Positions 29,939-37,368 of a stretch of 37,732 nucleotides of DNA are shown piece by piece. Both the position numbers and the translations under genes were made by a program. Numbering within the stretch: the stretch's first letter is position 1; the number at the start of each line of letters is the position of its first letter. The notes under the pieces were generated by a model. That model saw only the letters and a program-made list of their open reading frames with translations, was not told the DNA's origin and made no database searches. This DNA comes from a virus, in IMG/VR virus record IMGVR_UViG_3300047510_000088, positions 1 through 37,732 of that record; one strand, 5' to 3'.

Positions 29939-30507
29939 CAGAAGTCGTCTTCCTCACTCACCTCAGTGGTGGTGGTAATGTTTGGTTCGGATGCTTTGAA
30001 CCCGGCGGTGGTACCAAACAGTGCAGCCACATCTTCAGCAGCCATATCACCAGTGTCAACAGCAGCAGCACCATTCAAGGCTACAAGCTGGACACCAACA
30101 AGCTTCAAACTGGTACCGTAGGTAATACCATCACGCAGGATGTAGGGCTTCTGGTAGAAGGCAAGCTTCACACGACTACCAGAGTACATAGGAATGTTCT
30201 CATCGGTGATGTGAGTACCCTCAGTGTCAACCACAGGGGGCTTGCTCTCTTCATTCCAAGAGAACTTGATCTTGTACTTACCATCAGACACCTCTTCCCA
30301 AGGCTCAGGCTTGAGGGTAGAACGCTTAGGGTTTTTGAGCTTAGTCTCAGCCCACTTCAGGGATTCAGTACGATCTTCTTCCAGTTTCTCAACCAGATCA
30401 GAATCGACAAGAGCAGACAACGAATAGCCAAACTTGCTTGGCTTCAGTACAGCTTGGTAACCTTCAAGGACAACAGGCTGTTCAGTTTTGTGGATGGTGC
30501 GGGTCAT
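29938..30507 (-). CDS. 2.5: Single-stranded DNA-binding protein (gp2.5-like)
   Basis: 189 aa from ATG 30507, whose A overlaps the RNA polymerase TAA (TAATG). A TTG two codons upstream is not needed. It has an OB-fold-type middle (VKLAFYQKPYILRDGITYGT, then SLKLVGVQLVAL) and a C-terminal acidic tail ending EVSEEDDF. The terminal Phe preceded by acidic residues is the hallmark of T7 gp2.5, which uses it to contact gp4 and gp5. It coordinates leading and lagging strand synthesis and annealing. The length is slightly below T7 gp2.5 (232 aa). Confidence 0.92.
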   Translation of the reverse strand: MTRTIHKTEQPVVLEGYQAVLKPSKFGYSLSALVDSDLVEKLEEDRTESLKWAETKLKNPKRSTLKPEPWEEVSDGKYKIKFSWNEESKPPVVDTEGTHITDENIPMYSGSRVKLAFYQKPYILRDGITYGTSLKLVGVQLVALNGAAAVDTGDMAAEDVAALFGTTAGFKASEPNITTTTEVSEEDDF

Positions 30508-32846
30508 TAACAAAAAAAGTAGGTGGATTCAATCACGGATTCTGGTTCCAGATCTCCGATGATCGGTGGTTCAGTCTCTGCCCCTATCTGTTGGGCAAAG
30601 TCTCTAAGGTAATCATGCTCTGCGAATAGGTGCATGTAGGTTTCTCGTACAATAGCAGACAATGTAGACATGTCCGTTGCACGACAAAGCACAGAATCGT
30701 GAATGAGAGCAATAGGTGCATCAAAGTTTAAAGCAGCCAGGTGGAGGAGGCTAGCATCGAGGCTGTGGATAAGGTTAGGAGCTGTTGCGTTCTTGTGGTG
30801 TTGCTTGTCAACCTTCTCGGTATCATCAACAGCCACATCTAACTCACAACGACCCAATAACTGAAGCTTGATGGTAACAGTCTGTTTCTTCATCAGCTTC
30901 TGAGTAACGACAAACCCAGATGGTGTTGTCCATGTTAACTCATCCTCACCTCTGTCAATAGCTTTGGCTACTTCATCCTCAATCCAAGCCATAACAGCCA
31001 TGGGACCAGGGACGACAACATGCATAGCATCTCTAACTGCTTTAACAGTAGCAGTCAAGTCATCCTTCTCAATCTCTACACCTTTCTCTTTCAGTGCGTC
31101 CTTGATGTACCCACGATTAGAATAAGGTTTAGCATTGTAAGGCACGGTCATGACTACGCGCTTGACCGTTTTCCTGTCCATGTAAGGTTGAATGGACTCA
31201 GGACAATGTGGCTTGGCAGTGTCAGAGACGACCTGATAAGCATCTTGTGGTTTAGTACCAGGCAGGACGTTTACAAGACGTGCTGTAGACTTATCACGAG
31301 CTAATCCTGCAAGGATCTGAAGACCTGAACACGTAGCATCTGTTGCTACAAACAATCCAGTGAAACTACGATCACAAGTTACTACACAACGATAGTATTC
31401 TTCACAAGCTGCAAGGAATTGCCAAGGCTCATCAGCAGACTCCCAATCAGGAAGACACCCAATAGGATCTAAAACAATACGCTCGATGAATGTGGTATTA
31501 TCTTTTACCCATTGTAATCTCTCCTGCATAGGTGCTTTATCAAGACCCCAAGTAGTAGCTACCTGAAAGGCTAACCAATCTTCAGCTTCAGGAGTCATGA
31601 AAGCTTCCTCAGCACTTCTCAACAAACTTTTTCCAAAGTCGGTATCTTGTGGTGTAAGGAAAGCAGGGATCGGGTAAGCTCTACCTCTGTAATCAAAAGA
31701 CCACGGAATGTAGAACTTACTCCTACCTTTAAACCTCTTTACTGCTTCCATAGTCATGCGAGTTCTACATGACTTCCTAAACTCTTGAGATTTGAGGTTC
31801 ATTACCTCTGCTACTTGTCTTCTATAAGACTTTCTAGCTTCTGCATTCTCTGCAATATCTACTGGTTTAGGTGGTAGATCGTAGTCAGTTATCGGGAGGA
31901 ACTTTCCAACTTGTCTTCCTCTTTCTTCTAACTGCTTCGCTATCTCTACAATAAATGGATTTAGACAGTAGGCTACCTTCTGAATTTTATTGATAAATTC
32001 AAGAGGTTTCTCCCCCTGTATACGGCCGCCATGTCCACGACGCACTAGCTCATGACCACGAATTACCTCGTTCAAAAGGTAACCACCAGCTCGGTCATTT
32101 GTCCAGTCATTAGGCTCAATCAACATCGGCCATGCAAGCGGACTGAATAGCTCAGCATCACGCATTACTTGGTCTTTGATAGCCATAAACTCTGGCGTAG
32201 GTACAACGTACTGGACTGTTTTACGACCCTCTCGTTTGTTCTCCTTGGTAAACCAGCCACTACATTGCATGATGCAATCAAGTAACCAGCCACCTAGTTT
32301 AACACGGTTAGCACGTCCCCATGTGTCCCACTTCTTTACATCGTAGCGGTTCATCAAGGTACGAATGACAACCATCTTTTGTTGGGTGCCAATCGACTTG
32401 TGCCAATAGTTCTTCTTGAGTGTCTCTAACAGTCCAGGAGCGTGTGTCTCATAGTGACGCATGTGGCACTCATCTTCAACAGCGTGACCAATGGCATCAC
32501 ACACGTTGACAAGCTGATTACTTTTGTCTTTGTATGAGAATACTTTATCAAAGGTAATCTTGAGTGCAATAGTAGCAGATGCTAATATTTCTAGTTGTGA
32601 TACATACTGCTTGATTAATTGAAATTGATGACCAGTACCACGTGTTAATCTAGCGTGTGTAGTATCTTCAATGTACTTGACAAGTAGCGGAAGAATAGTA
32701 TCAATAGAAGCGTTACCGTACACACTAGCAGATGCGTACTCTTTAGCTTCAAGATCTCGTGTGTTCTTGTGAAGCCGTTCTAGCCCCTGTGCAATAGCTT
32801 CACGTTCTAGTTTAACCTGCTCTTCAATCTCCGCTGGTGTTGCCAA
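30507..32846 (-). CDS. 1: Single-subunit phage RNA polymerase
   Basis: 779 aa, shorter than T7 RNAP (883). Catalytic and nucleotide-binding residues align: Asp503 (VATDATCSGLQ), Lys562/Arg563, Met566 and Tyr570 (KRVVMTVPYN), and His716-Asp717 (LIHDSVL). WSFDYRGRAYPIPAF (382-396) is also conserved. The C-terminal end YFFC takes the place of the FAFA foot of T7. It transcribes the middle and late genes. The start is TTG at 32846, because no in-frame ATG exists upstream and GGAGG lies six bases before it. The start lies inside a 43-aa gene in another frame. Confidence 0.97.
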   Translation of the reverse strand: MATPAEIEEQVKLEREAIAQGLERLHKNTRDLEAKEYASASVYGNASIDTILPLLVKYIEDTTHARLTRGTGHQFQLIKQYVSQLEILASATIALKITFDKVFSYKDKSNQLVNVCDAIGHAVEDECHMRHYETHAPGLLETLKKNYWHKSIGTQQKMVVIRTLMNRYDVKKWDTWGRANRVKLGGWLLDCIMQCSGWFTKENKREGRKTVQYVVPTPEFMAIKDQVMRDAELFSPLAWPMLIEPNDWTNDRAGGYLLNEVIRGHELVRRGHGGRIQGEKPLEFINKIQKVAYCLNPFIVEIAKQLEERGRQVGKFLPITDYDLPPKPVDIAENAEARKSYRRQVAEVMNLKSQEFRKSCRTRMTMEAVKRFKGRSKFYIPWSFDYRGRAYPIPAFLTPQDTDFGKSLLRSAEEAFMTPEAEDWLAFQVATTWGLDKAPMQERLQWVKDNTTFIERIVLDPIGCLPDWESADEPWQFLAACEEYYRCVVTCDRSFTGLFVATDATCSGLQILAGLARDKSTARLVNVLPGTKPQDAYQVVSDTAKPHCPESIQPYMDRKTVKRVVMTVPYNAKPYSNRGYIKDALKEKGVEIEKDDLTATVKAVRDAMHVVVPGPMAVMAWIEDEVAKAIDRGEDELTWTTPSGFVVTQKLMKKQTVTIKLQLLGRCELDVAVDDTEKVDKQHHKNATAPNLIHSLDASLLHLAALNFDAPIALIHDSVLCRATDMSTLSAIVRETYMHLFAEHDYLRDFAQQIGAETEPPIIGDLEPESVIESTYFFC

Positions 32847-34382: not shown

Positions 34383-34709
34383 TTAGGCAGCGACGGTTTG
34401 TTCCATGTCTTGCATAACTTTCTGGCAGTAAGCCTCAACGACAAACCAAACTGCTTGCGTTTTAAGTTCAAGAATTGACGAGATCTTGGCTTGCTTAGTG
34501 AGCGTAGCCATCCAATCATTGCCGAGCATGTCATAGCAAACATCCTCTACGCTGTCTTCGTGAGTATCAAAGAACTCGTTACATTCTTGGTTGTAGATGA
34601 AACCAGACACACCACCACTACAACCGTGGTGTGCAACATCGCGGATCTCGTCCATATCATCGAAACGCTCTTTAAGAGCATCGGTGAGTTCGTGGGTGTA
34701 GAAAAGCAT
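34383..34709 (-). CDS. 108-aa early protein with HGCSGG motif
   Basis: I choose ATG 34709 (MLFYTHELTDALKERFDDMD). The longer frame from 34835 runs back through hairpin elements and is unlikely. The sequence DVAHHGCSGGVSGFIYNQEC, then FFDTHEDSVEDVCYDML, is similar in layout to small phage proteins with an HGxxGGxxGFIYYxxT motif (a DUF7222-type family, recalled with moderate certainty). The rest is helical. No enzyme function is known. It follows the double hairpin at 34744-34791 and has no clear Shine-Dalgarno sequence. Confidence 0.75.
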   Translation of the reverse strand: MLFYTHELTDALKERFDDMDEIRDVAHHGCSGGVSGFIYNQECNEFFDTHEDSVEDVCYDMLGNDWMATLTKQAKISSILELKTQAVWFVVEAYCQKVMQDMEQTVAA

Positions 34710-34743
34710 CAGGCGGAAAAGGTGAAGAACACATAGTCTCGTT

Positions 34744-34791
34744 GAGTGTAACGAAACACTCTTGAGGACTATAGAAAAGCCCGAAGGCTTT
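34744..34791 (-). other. Double hairpin element A
   Basis: Minus strand, beginning 11 bases after the stop of the 74-aa gene: AAAGCC, TTCG, GGCTTT, a short spacer, then GAGTGT, TTCGTT, ACACTC. The first hairpin has the very stable UUCG tetraloop and is followed by only four T, so it is at best a weak terminator. It is one of three related elements located behind consecutive small genes. Confidence 0.75.
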
Positions 34792-34801
34792 AGTATAATC
34801 G

Positions 34802-35026
34802 TCAGCCAACGACGGTGTACTGATTGCCCTTGCAATATGCATTGACAAACTTACCAGCAGACTCAAACTCTCCGAAGAAGAAGTCAGTAATTGCTTCAGC
34901 GTTAACGTTCTCATACAGGAACGATTTAGCACTGGAGACATACTCAACGAGTGCCTGGCTAGTAGCAGGATTGAGCTTCAGGCTACGGATAGCGGAAGAC
35001 TGCAGGTTGTCAGCTTGAAAGAACAT
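34802..35026 (-). CDS. 74-aa KTSC-domain-like protein
   Basis: I choose ATG 35026 (MFFQADNLQSSAIRSLKLNP), since residues upstream cross a hairpin element. The order SSAIRSL, ALVEYVSSAKSFLYENVNAE, FFGEFESAGKFVNAYCKG matches the short KTSC domain (strands with a xYENV turn, then a Ser-x-Gly-Lys-Phe loop). The family is small and its function is uncertain; KTSC has been seen near RNA or translation proteins. No Shine-Dalgarno sequence is present. The leader is guanine-free. Confidence 0.72.
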   Translation of the reverse strand: MFFQADNLQSSAIRSLKLNPATSQALVEYVSSAKSFLYENVNAEAITDFFFGEFESAGKFVNAYCKGNQYTVVG

Positions 35027-35053
35027 GATGTGAATGTGTAATGTTAGTTGAGC

Positions 35054-35089
35054 GTAGTCGTGAGGACTACAGAAAACCCCGAAGGGTTT
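35054..35089 (-). other. Double hairpin element B with guanine-free leader behind it
   Basis: Minus strand, 10 bases after the stop of the 78-aa gene: AAACCC, TTCG, GGGTTT, TCT, then GTAGTC, CTCAC, GACTAC. It is followed by a 27-base leader that has only one G and ends CATTACACATTCACATC in front of the ATG at 35026. The stop-to-hairpin segment TGACGATTACACTAAA is nearly identical to that of element A. Confidence 0.78.
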
Positions 35090-35099
35090 AGTGTAATCG

Positions 35100-35336
35100 T
35101 CAGGCAATAGCGAGATTAACACCGAATGCTTGCTTAACTCGTGGGTTGTTGATGATGTTATCGTTCACCCAAAACCCAAGAGACATGTTAGGATTAAGCT
35201 CAAGGTTGAGGATAGCACGACGGCTCACGTTAGTATAACGATACCAATGTCCATTAGCAAACTTGACGTTAACACGTCCAAGGAAGATATCGGTGACGAT
35301 GTAATCAATTGCGTCAGAAGTGCGAGTGATAAGCAT
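35100..35336 (-). CDS. 78-aa KTSC-domain-like protein, paralogue of the next gene
   Basis: MLITRTSDAIDYIVTDIFLG, then RVNVKFANGHWYRYTNVSRR and LELNPNMSLGFWVNDNIINN. It has the KTSC layout: a strand with VKFANGxWYRY and a TNV turn, followed by a SxGxW loop in place of the usual SxGKF. It is clearly related in pattern to the 74-aa neighbour but strongly diverged, as in an old tandem duplication. No Shine-Dalgarno sequence precedes the ATG. The leader AACCTTAAACACTTCACAAC is guanine-free. Confidence 0.7.
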   Translation of the reverse strand: MLITRTSDAIDYIVTDIFLGRVNVKFANGHWYRYTNVSRRAILNLELNPNMSLGFWVNDNIINNPRVKQAFGVNLAIA

Positions 35337-35364
35337 GTTGTGAAGTGTTTAAGGTTGAATGAGT

Positions 35365-35404
35365 GTAGCCTGTAAGCTACAGAAACCCATCAGATGTTGA
35401 TGGG
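35365..35404 (-). other. Double hairpin element C
   Basis: Minus strand, about 14 bases after the stop of the 67-aa gene: CCCATCA, ACATC, TGATGGG, TTTCT, then GTAGC, TTACAG, GCTAC. It has the same layout as elements A and B (GC-rich stem, TTTCT-type link, second stem starting GTAG) but different stem sequences, so the structure is conserved rather than the sequence. A guanine-free leader follows. Confidence 0.75.
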
Positions 35405-35418
35405 AAAGTGTAACTAAC

Positions 35419-35622
35419 TCAAAGCCAATGGCGGATATACTCATCGAGATCGTCAGAAGATGACTCATCGATAAGCTCAGCATCTGTCAGCTGTTGCAGC
35501 ATCTGAAGATATTCGTCAGGAGTAGGATCAACATCGGGATCGAAGTCGTCATGACAAAGGAACTGGTACTCGTGATACAAGGCAGAGATAAGGTGAGAGC
35601 GGTTGAAAGCTGTGGTTGTCAT
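35419..35622 (-). CDS. 67-aa acidic early protein, leaderless
   Basis: I choose ATG 35622 (MTTTAFNRSHLISALYHEYQ), because the promoter -10 element ends six bases upstream. The longer frame from 35712 would include the promoter. Acidic and Asp-rich (FDPDVDPTPDEYLQMLQQLT, then SSSDDLDEYIRHWL), helical, with a proline/Asp turn. Such small acidic early proteins often inhibit host enzymes by mimicking DNA, but no direct match is known. It should be translated from an mRNA that starts at the ATG. Confidence 0.75.
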   Translation of the reverse strand: MTTTAFNRSHLISALYHEYQFLCHDDFDPDVDPTPDEYLQMLQQLTDAELIDESSSDDLDEYIRHWL

Positions 35623-36391: not shown

Positions 36392-36421
36392 ATGATATAT
36401 GGTAAGACAAAATTATGTCAA
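36392..36421 (-). promoter_or_regulatory. Strong sigma70-type early promoter
   Basis: Minus strand: perfect -35 TTGACA (36416-36421), then an 18-base spacer to TATCAT (36392-36397), or 16 bases to TATATC. The -35 directly follows the T-run of the large inverted repeat. It faces the small early genes, so host RNA polymerase would read it at once after DNA entry. Confidence 0.8.
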
Positions 36422-36425
36422 AAAT

Positions 36426-36531
36426 CTAAGACCCCTCTACAAGCCCTCTGGGGGCTCGCTACGCTCGCTCACCTCACCAACGTACCAAGGAGCGGTCAAA
36501 CGCATCTCAGGGAGGCTTGTAGAGGTCTTAG
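36426..36531 (-). repeat. Long inverted repeat, likely terminator
   Basis: Arms CTAAGACCCCTCTACAAGCC (36426-36445) and GGCTTGTAGAGGTCTTAG (36514-36531) are complementary over 18 pairs, apart from a two-base bulge. The loop is 68 bases and includes a GCTCGCTACGCTCGCTC block. On the minus strand, ATTTTT follows the stem. This would end the thyX transcript right before the early promoter. The left end of the loop and one arm are also coding for the 103-aa protein below thyX. Confidence 0.75.
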
Positions 36532-36748
36532 ACGGCGTTTCCTTGTAGATCGGAGTGACCATATCGGGCATAGGAGGTAATTTAACCTCTTCAATGGCTT
36601 TTGTTACCTCTGTTTTGACTCTATAGTCGATTATTTTCTCCTCAAGCCACCACAAAAGGGCGAAGACGAGGTGATCCCACCACGGGATACCCCGACTCCA
36701 CGCCTTTTGAAGAGTCTTAAACTCATTTAGTCTAAGTTTTTGTTCCAC
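36437..36748 (-). CDS. 103-aa protein with one hydrophobic helix
   Basis: MEQKLRLNEFKTLQKAWSRG, then the hydrophobic WWDHLVFALLWWLEEKI (23-39), a basic/acidic helix, and a long disordered end. It overlaps the thyX 3' end by 22 bases. The last residues (GEVSERSEPPEGL) are encoded by the inverted-repeat/GC-block region, so this tail was probably added by a repeat that entered the gene. Single-pass membrane association is likely. Function unknown, and a chance frame cannot be fully excluded. Confidence 0.6.
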   Translation of the reverse strand: MEQKLRLNEFKTLQKAWSRGIPWWDHLVFALLWWLEEKIIDYRVKTEVTKAIEEVKLPPMPDMVTPIYKETPSKTSTSLPEMRLTAPWYVGEVSERSEPPEGL

Positions 36749-37368
36749 ATCGCTTCGGATACGCTTGGAAGGTGTTGATAAAGTAGGTCTTGTACCTGTG
36801 CAGCTATTTGTGCGTGTTCTTTTTGAGTACCGTTAGAGGTTCGGAGGTCACAATAGTGTAGCCAACTTCTAATACTACCATTCATGTACATACGGGTAGG
36901 CATAGACAACGGTAACACCTCTCTTGCACACTCCTTAGCTACACCTTGTTCAAGTAGTTTCTTATAGACTAACTCCGAATGTTTAAAGAGTTGAGTAATT
37001 TCTTGTTTAAGAAACAGGTCTTCCTCTTCTACTTCGATGCTATTCTGTCTATTCTTTGTGTCTTGTAAACGCAGTTGAGGTACTGTAGGACTTCCGAGTT
37101 GGGAAGCATCTGCATACCGTTGGCTAAACTCTTGAAAGCTAAAGCTTCTATGTCTTAGTATCTGTGCTGCTATGCTTCGGGTTGTTTCTATTTCTACACA
37201 CATGTTCACCATCTCAAAGGGTGACCAATGAGAATGATCAATAAGGTACTTAATTAGTTTAGCACTAGTCTTAGTGTTTGTTTGGTTAGAGGGATTAGAT
37301 ACTCTAGCCATGTAACTAATTAGTTCTTCTGCATCAGGTGTTACATGAATGAGTTTAACGGAGTGCAT
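36727..37368 (-). CDS. thyX: Flavin-dependent thymidylate synthase
   Basis: 213 aa. The RHRX7S signature is present: Arg72-His73-Arg74 and Ser82 in LRHRSFSFQEFSQRYADASQ, with HSHWSPFEMVNM before it and SWLHYCDLRTSNGTQKEHAQ near the substrate and FAD contacts. It makes dTMP from dUMP with FAD and methylene-tetrahydrofolate. It supplies thymidylate together with the reductase genes, but lies in the early block far from them. Its start is preceded by a 135-base gap behind a strong terminator, so it must have its own promoter. Confidence 0.96.
   Translation of the reverse strand: MHSVKLIHVTPDAEELISYMARVSNPSNQTNTKTSAKLIKYLIDHSHWSPFEMVNMCVEIETTRSIAAQILRHRSFSFQEFSQRYADASQLGSPTVPQLRLQDTKNRQNSIEVEEEDLFLKQEITQLFKHSELVYKKLLEQGVAKECAREVLPLSMPTRMYMNGSIRSWLHYCDLRTSNGTQKEHAQIAAQVQDLLYQHLPSVSEAMWNKNLD

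Follow-up and report, generated by a model that had tools for sequence, protein, structure and literature searches.

A three-strand RNA element at the early-gene borders of T7-like cyanophages, a probable counterpart of the T7 RNase III sites

Three elements (E1, E2 and E3) lying between tiny genes in the early region of a T7-like podovirus that infects marine Synechococcus belong to a real structured RNA, for which comparative analysis establishes two folds and the conservation of a third strand. On the analogy with T7, these elements are probably cis-acting mRNA processing sites that correspond to the early RNase III R-sites of T7 and carry a third strand of their own. Early mRNA production in marine T7-like cyanophages has been little described: the literature searched, which consisted of open-licence papers, contained no paper on it and none describing RNase III sites or intergenic hairpins in cyanopodoviruses, an absence that is weak evidence. 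A widespread element that covaries and lies at the borders of early genes would extend T7-style RNA processing to ocean phages, and its third strand suggests in concrete terms how processed mRNAs might persist where the host has RNase J. For synthetic biology in cyanobacteria, the element would serve as a small device for separating genes, which defines the 5' end and whose leader does not depend on a Shine-Dalgarno (SD) sequence.

The whole stretch of DNA analysed here (the window) is a 37,732-nt (37.7 kb) record, in which the main genes lie on the minus strand. Its nearest named relatives are S-RIP2, KBS-P-1A, S-CBP3 and others, and its RNA polymerase is 71–78% identical to those of 7B11-B, S-RIP1, S-B28 and S-RIP2. 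In the early region, a series of tiny genes separates ThyX from the phage RNA polymerase gene, and the elements are located ~1.6–2.7 kb upstream of the latter gene, in the window as well as in the relatives (Table 1).

On the RNA-sense strand, all three elements were confirmed at the places where they had been predicted, 10–14 bases behind stop codons: the first hairpins of E1, E2 and E3 begin 14, 10 and 10 bases behind the stops of the genes ending at 35419, 35100 and 34802, respectively. The folding z-scores were −3.9, −3.7 and −3.2, and for each element at most 1 of 300 dinucleotide shuffles was as stable. In addition, a covariance model (R1), built from an alignment of 83 distinct members (A1), matched exactly these three sites in the 37.7 kb, with E-values that are rough (Table 1); E2 was in the training set and E1 was represented there by a near copy, and E3 itself was not included. 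These results indicate that the elements are more than chance.

Table 1. Features of the early region and of elements E1–E3 in the window (motifs in RNA sense; bit scores and rough E-values from model R1), and tRNA-like structures in related loci
Feature	Position	Strand	Remarks
ThyX gene	36727–37368		
Inverted arms	~36420–36535	−	between ThyX and first early promoter
Early promoter	35859–35831	−	
Early promoter	35657–35629	−	
Upstream early gene, 67 aa	35419–35622	−	PHROG 734; probably leaderless
E1, whole match	35355–35423	−	between genes 35419–35622 and 35100–35336; 47.8 bits, E 1e-10
E1 strand A, GUUACA	35409–35414	−	bubble CU follows at 35407–35408
E1 inner hairpin, CCCAUCA-acauc-UGAUGGG	35386–35404	−	
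E1 strand B, UGUAGC	35376–35381	−	bubble UC before it, 35382–35383
E1 strand C, GCUACA	35364–35369	−	alternative partner of B
E1 leader	35337–35363	−	no G, no SD; ahead of ATG at 35336
Early gene, 78 aa	35100–35336	−	PHROG 7365
E2, whole match	35044–35106	−	between genes 35100–35336 and 34802–35026; 63.8 bits, E 5e-15
E2 strand A, AUUACA	35092–35097	−	five bases from first base of UGA stop
E2 inner hairpin, AAACCC-UUCG-GGGUUU	35074–35089	−	
E2 strand B, UGUAGU	35066–35071	−	
E2 strand C, ACUACG	35053–35058	−	
E2 leader	35027–35052	−	no G; ahead of ATG at 35026
Early gene, 74 aa	34802–35026	−	PHROG 7365 paralog; weak KTSC match
E3, match to core only	34746–34808	−	between genes 34802–35026 and 34383–34709; 48.0 bits, E 9e-11
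E3 strand A, AUUAUA	34794–34799	−	
E3 inner hairpin, AAAGCC-UUCG-GGCUUU	34776–34791	−	
E3 strand B, UAUAGU	34768–34773	−	G-to-A change matched in A and C
E3 extra hairpin, GAGUGU-UUCGUU-ACACUC	34744–34761	−	inserted in B–C loop
E3 strand C, ACUAUG	34732–34737	−	kept behind inserted hairpin
Early gene, 108 aa	34383–34709	−	DUF7222
Phage RNA polymerase gene	30507–32846		
tRNA-like structures, L164 (S-CBP42)	381, 840, 1149, 1574, 2266		
tRNA-like structures, L002 (S-RIP2), L095, L100, L104, L124, L140, L169			

The minimum-energy fold of the intact RNA is one long bubble hairpin, in which strand B (UGUAGUC), after the first hairpin, is the partner of strand A (e.g. GAUUACA), located just behind the stop codon, and the two enclose the inner hairpin. 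A nearly invariant 2x2 CU/UC mismatch separates this outer helix from the inner hairpin. Strand C (e.g. GACUAC) is usually located 6–8 nt behind B; it is a repeat of A and an alternative partner for B. Since the second hairpin (B:C) and the A:B helix use the same strand B, the two folds compete and are mutually exclusive. The long stem reaches the upstream stop codon, the UGA of which pairs with a conserved UCA (columns 5–7 with 61–63); both sides were changed at pair 7:61 in 13 sequences, and where UGU replaces UGA, the partner is mostly ACA. The bubble and the UCA are conserved in sequence, beyond pairing alone, and the distance from the stop codon to the bubble is 11 nt in 54 of 114 distinct instances. 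A:B was the more stable fold in 105 of 105 instances (median of −21.2 kcal/mol, compared to −16.8 kcal/mol when A was blocked), and in the modelled 3' product, cut before B, strand B was paired in 97 of 105. The two consecutive hairpins of the original prediction are not independent, but are parts of one three-strand element with exclusive folds, which holds the stop codon inside its stem.

In the window, the second hairpin reads TGTAGC-ttacag-GCTACA in E1, GTAGT-cctcacg-ACTAC in E2 and ATAGT-...-ACTAT in E3, all in the RNA sense. The UUCG loops, which had been noted for two of the elements, are those of E2 and E3. Strand C of E3 falls outside the model match because of the hairpin inserted ahead of it. 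The position of this extra hairpin reads CCUCAGAGGCUAUG in a relative, and a similar insertion is seen in L113 (3977–4048).

Among the 83 sequences of A1, 14 of the 15 pairs in the A:B and inner stem were changed on both sides with the pairing kept. The covariation score for this A:B form was 0.457, compared to 0.157 for shuffled alignments and 0.09–0.12 with the partners slid, and the B:C helix covaried in 4 of its 6 pairs. Because the members of A1 had been partly chosen by pairing, the test was repeated blind to A, using 94 sites picked by the inner stem, the UC and the B:C hairpin. In this set, 52 of the 94 sites had an A strand that pairs fully at the expected offset, compared to only one in eight other offsets together, and CU was present on the 5' side, opposite UC, in 51 of these 52 A-paired sites. 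The three strands change together, as seen in the B/C sets TGTAGC/GCTAC, TATAGT/ACTAT, TGAGGG/CCCTC, TGCAGT/ACTGC, AGTAGA/TCTAC and TGTAGG/CCTAC.

Over the loci examined, R1 gave 141 covariance-model matches, 114 of which are distinct, with the sequences used to build the model matching by construction. The same architecture is kept across the 114 distinct instances, which bears out the idea of a standard unit; covariation and recurrence in relatives, both set beforehand as the test of the original prediction, were found. The element is present in four cultured Synechococcus podoviruses (S-RIP2, S-CBP3, S-RIP1 and S-CBP4) and in many uncultured relatives. Of 30 whole records, 21 carried one to three copies, IMG/VR records often being fragmentary; the model also detected three copies in S-CBP4 and two in S-RIP2. 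When 80 loci around related RNA polymerases were scanned for structure, CU/UC was the commonest bubble by far, and almost always in one sequence context. Two patterns that fixed A, the bubble, B and UCA, and left the inner stem and C free, yielded 54 distinct matches in IMG/VR, in which the inner stem was present in 51 and C in 48. The three matches with no good stem also fail the covariance model and are attributed to chance, as are 5 pattern matches in 257 billion bases of bacterial and archaeal genomes, which come from diverse species and score 16.5 bits or less with the model. C is absent in a few instances (L094 and L132).

R1 gave no match in Syn5, P60, P-SSP7 and T7, in S-CBP1, S-SRP01, DSL-LC07, 7B11-B, S-B28, S-SBP1 and S-TIP37, or in NATL1A-7, AP013539, 9515-10a, S-CBP42 and AP013538. 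These results indicate that the family belongs to one part of the T7-like cyanophages, not to all of them, and that the element is not essential to their life style. A generic three-strand scan of the genomes with no model match gave little above shuffles, except for L039 and L059, which are divergent likely members with a CU/AU bubble. Rfam 15 gave no match at the gathering threshold, and none at E-values up to 1 for the element region; the element is an RNA family absent from Rfam. A tRNA scan detected none. A divergent subclass, to which the model matches weakly, was observed in L039, L051, L059, L073, L111 and L125; its bubbles are different, mostly CU/AU, and its strands are, for example, GUAGAC for B and GUCUAC for C.

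The genes starting at 35336 and 35026 both belong to PHROG 7365 and are paralogs, each with its own element, as would be expected if the element was copied with each gene. This proposal does not extend to E3, which precedes the unrelated DUF7222 gene (start 34709), or to a fourth gene, which has no element. Tallies of the gene borders suggest that single-copy relatives have the order 35622-type gene, element, 35336-type gene, element, 34709-type gene. As a mark of the gene border, the element was duplicated together with one gene.

The genes at 35336 and 35026 have leaders that lack an SD, as had been described, and that contain no G in their last 26–27 bases. Across the family, G accounts for 5% of the last 20 nt of the leaders, compared to 22% around them, and SD-like motifs are present in 1 of 89 leaders. 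The leader after C has a median length of 24 nt, with 6% G compared to the same 22%.

In T7, the host RNase III cuts the early RNA, which yields mono- and dicistronic mRNAs (PMC4858673). The T7 R-sites (R0.3–R1.3) and the cyanophage element are alike in that both lie between early genes of a T7-like phage, on the early transcript and upstream of the phage RNA polymerase gene. They are also alike in design, each forming an imperfect hairpin that adjoins the upstream stop codon and comprises about two helix turns broken by a bubble. Most of the T7 sites that were folded have a 5' arm that begins at the upstream stop codon, together with a bubble and a ACUCAAGG...CCUUUAUGA core, and this core is similar to that of the cyanophage element (ACUCAAGG/CCUUUAUGA in T7 and ACACUNAGG/CCYYUCUGUA in the cyanophages). 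Conversely, the bubble of the element is small and symmetric, whereas that of T7 is larger (ACUC/UAUGA), the outer helix differs in sequence from the T7 R-sites, and R1 matches no T7 site. The novelty relative to T7 is strand C, which is conserved and covarying in the aligned cyanophage family and was found in one T7 site only, R1.1. After the known cut, the 3' product of R1.1 starts with a hairpin, AUUGACC...GGUUAAU, which uses bases of the cut arm and follows the same logic as B:C. The shared position and design make a processing role, as originally suggested, the best reading of the element, and both systems are expected to yield separate mRNAs, in the cyanophages through a cleavage proposed by analogy. 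RNase III genes are reported for all sequenced cyanobacteria, and RNase III mutants of Synechococcus PCC 7002 are reported to be viable (PMC10989914). A control search that found RNase III in Synechococcus elongatus did not find it in the window.

In the proposed mechanism, the early transcript made by the host polymerase would fold co-transcriptionally into A:B, and the host RNase III, the likely enzyme, would cut at the bubble, on the 3' side. By analogy with the cores of the T7 R-sites, the cut is predicted close to UCU^G, which in E1 would be at strand B. The upstream mRNA would keep the inner hairpin as its 3' end, whereas the freed B would pair with C, and thus the downstream mRNA would begin with a 5' hairpin, followed by the ~25-nt G-poor leader without an SD. 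The first and second hairpins would then represent the two product ends, and the tiny early genes would be separated into single messages with both ends putatively protected. In cyanobacteria, such a 5' hairpin would be relevant because RNase J, a 5'–3' nuclease, is reported to be present there and absent from E. coli (PMC10989914).

The two folds might instead form a ribosome-gated switch that does not require cutting, in which a ribosome terminating at the UGA covers A and leaves B to pair with C, and the absence of the ribosome leads to A:B, thereby linking the fate or the translation of one gene to the translation of the tiny gene before it. The pairing of the stop codon within the stem, the usually constant distance from the stop to the bubble and the exclusivity of the folds are consistent with such a switch, but C ends ~25 nt ahead of the AUG and both folds leave the leader open, so that the start site would never be hidden. 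Moreover, the T7 R-sites likewise begin at stop codons, yet are cut, and the switch would leave the invariant bubble unexplained. We regard it as rather unlikely.

It is unlikely that the element is only a stabiliser, at which a host or phage protein would bind the conserved bubble and protect the mRNA, since this would not explain why B has two partners. The conservation of the bubble and UCA beyond pairing fits such a site, as does the early protein with a weak match to KTSC, a domain for which a role in RNA binding has been suggested.

Weak intrinsic terminators or attenuators between the early genes are very unlikely, although the inner hairpin of E1, together with the UUUCUG behind it, resembles a terminator, for which B:C could be the anti-structure. 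In a loose terminator scan, E1 was the only one of the three inner hairpins to pass, and most members of the family have no U-run after the inner stem (consensus YUCUGUAG). In addition, a scan gave no promoter candidate between E1–E3 and the genes that they precede, and termination would cut off the RNA polymerase gene downstream. Neither a terminator nor a promoter function of the elements is supported by the family consensus or the scan. Finally, a DNA-level feature (a phage promoter, a recombination repeat or a mobile unit) is scarcely credible, despite the likeness of the copies within one genome and the paralogy of two genes, given that the covariation, with compensatory changes that include G-U pairs, and the constant orientation with respect to the genes indicate RNA, and that the sites lie at orthologous gene borders.

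Returning to the processing sites, we tentatively raise the possibility that the third strand was selected to displace the cut end and form the 5' hairpin, as a 'cut-and-cap' switch that would be an adaptation to hosts with RNase J. Related cyanophages would then reach the same product via a tRNA-like structure and a hairpin, and the design of the product, rather than the enzyme, would be conserved.

The tRNA-like structures, consisting of a 7-bp acceptor-like stem and a T-arm-like hairpin, were observed in S-CBP42, S-RIP2 and several contigs, where they separate or precede early genes (Table 1). At the loci tried, ARAGORN recognised no full tRNA in them and Rfam gave no match, and they are possibly processing signals of the RNase P or RNase Z type. 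A hairpin starts ~1–4 nt after the acceptor-like stem in 12 of 12 tRNA-like structures, a small set that was partly found by pattern, with a median z-score of −2.8, a stability reached by 18% of random stop-following 36-mers in the window. In several of these cases, the hairpin is followed by a G-poor leader. The occurrence of a tRNA-like structure and then a hairpin in this second lineage suggests, as a lead and not as proof, that the 5'-hairpin product is constant, whereas the cutting signal varies. L095, L100, L104 and L124 contain both the element and a tRNA-like structure.

Two other known systems resemble parts of this arrangement. The 5'-terminal stem-loops of the ompA type stabilise mRNA, and they share with the element a short 5' hairpin followed by an unstructured leader; their 5' end comes from the transcription start, whereas that of the cyanophage mRNA is proposed to come from processing. 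The t-elements, which occur in plant mitochondrial mRNAs, resemble the tRNA-like structures at comparable places in S-CBP42 and S-RIP2 as an analogy only, and no t-element-like structures were seen in the window.

At the upstream end of the early region, the window contains two early promoters of the form TTGACT-N17-CATACT (usually TGCCATACT), and the same form was observed in L088, L093, L110, L112, L020 and other related loci. In 26 of 26 matches from the window and the related phages, an ATG is located exactly 6 nt behind the −10 box, and the first early genes look leaderless. Ahead of the first of these promoters, the two long inverted arms, tctaagacctctacaagcc ... ggcttgtagaggggtcttaga, are followed by TTTTTG and could be a strong terminator.
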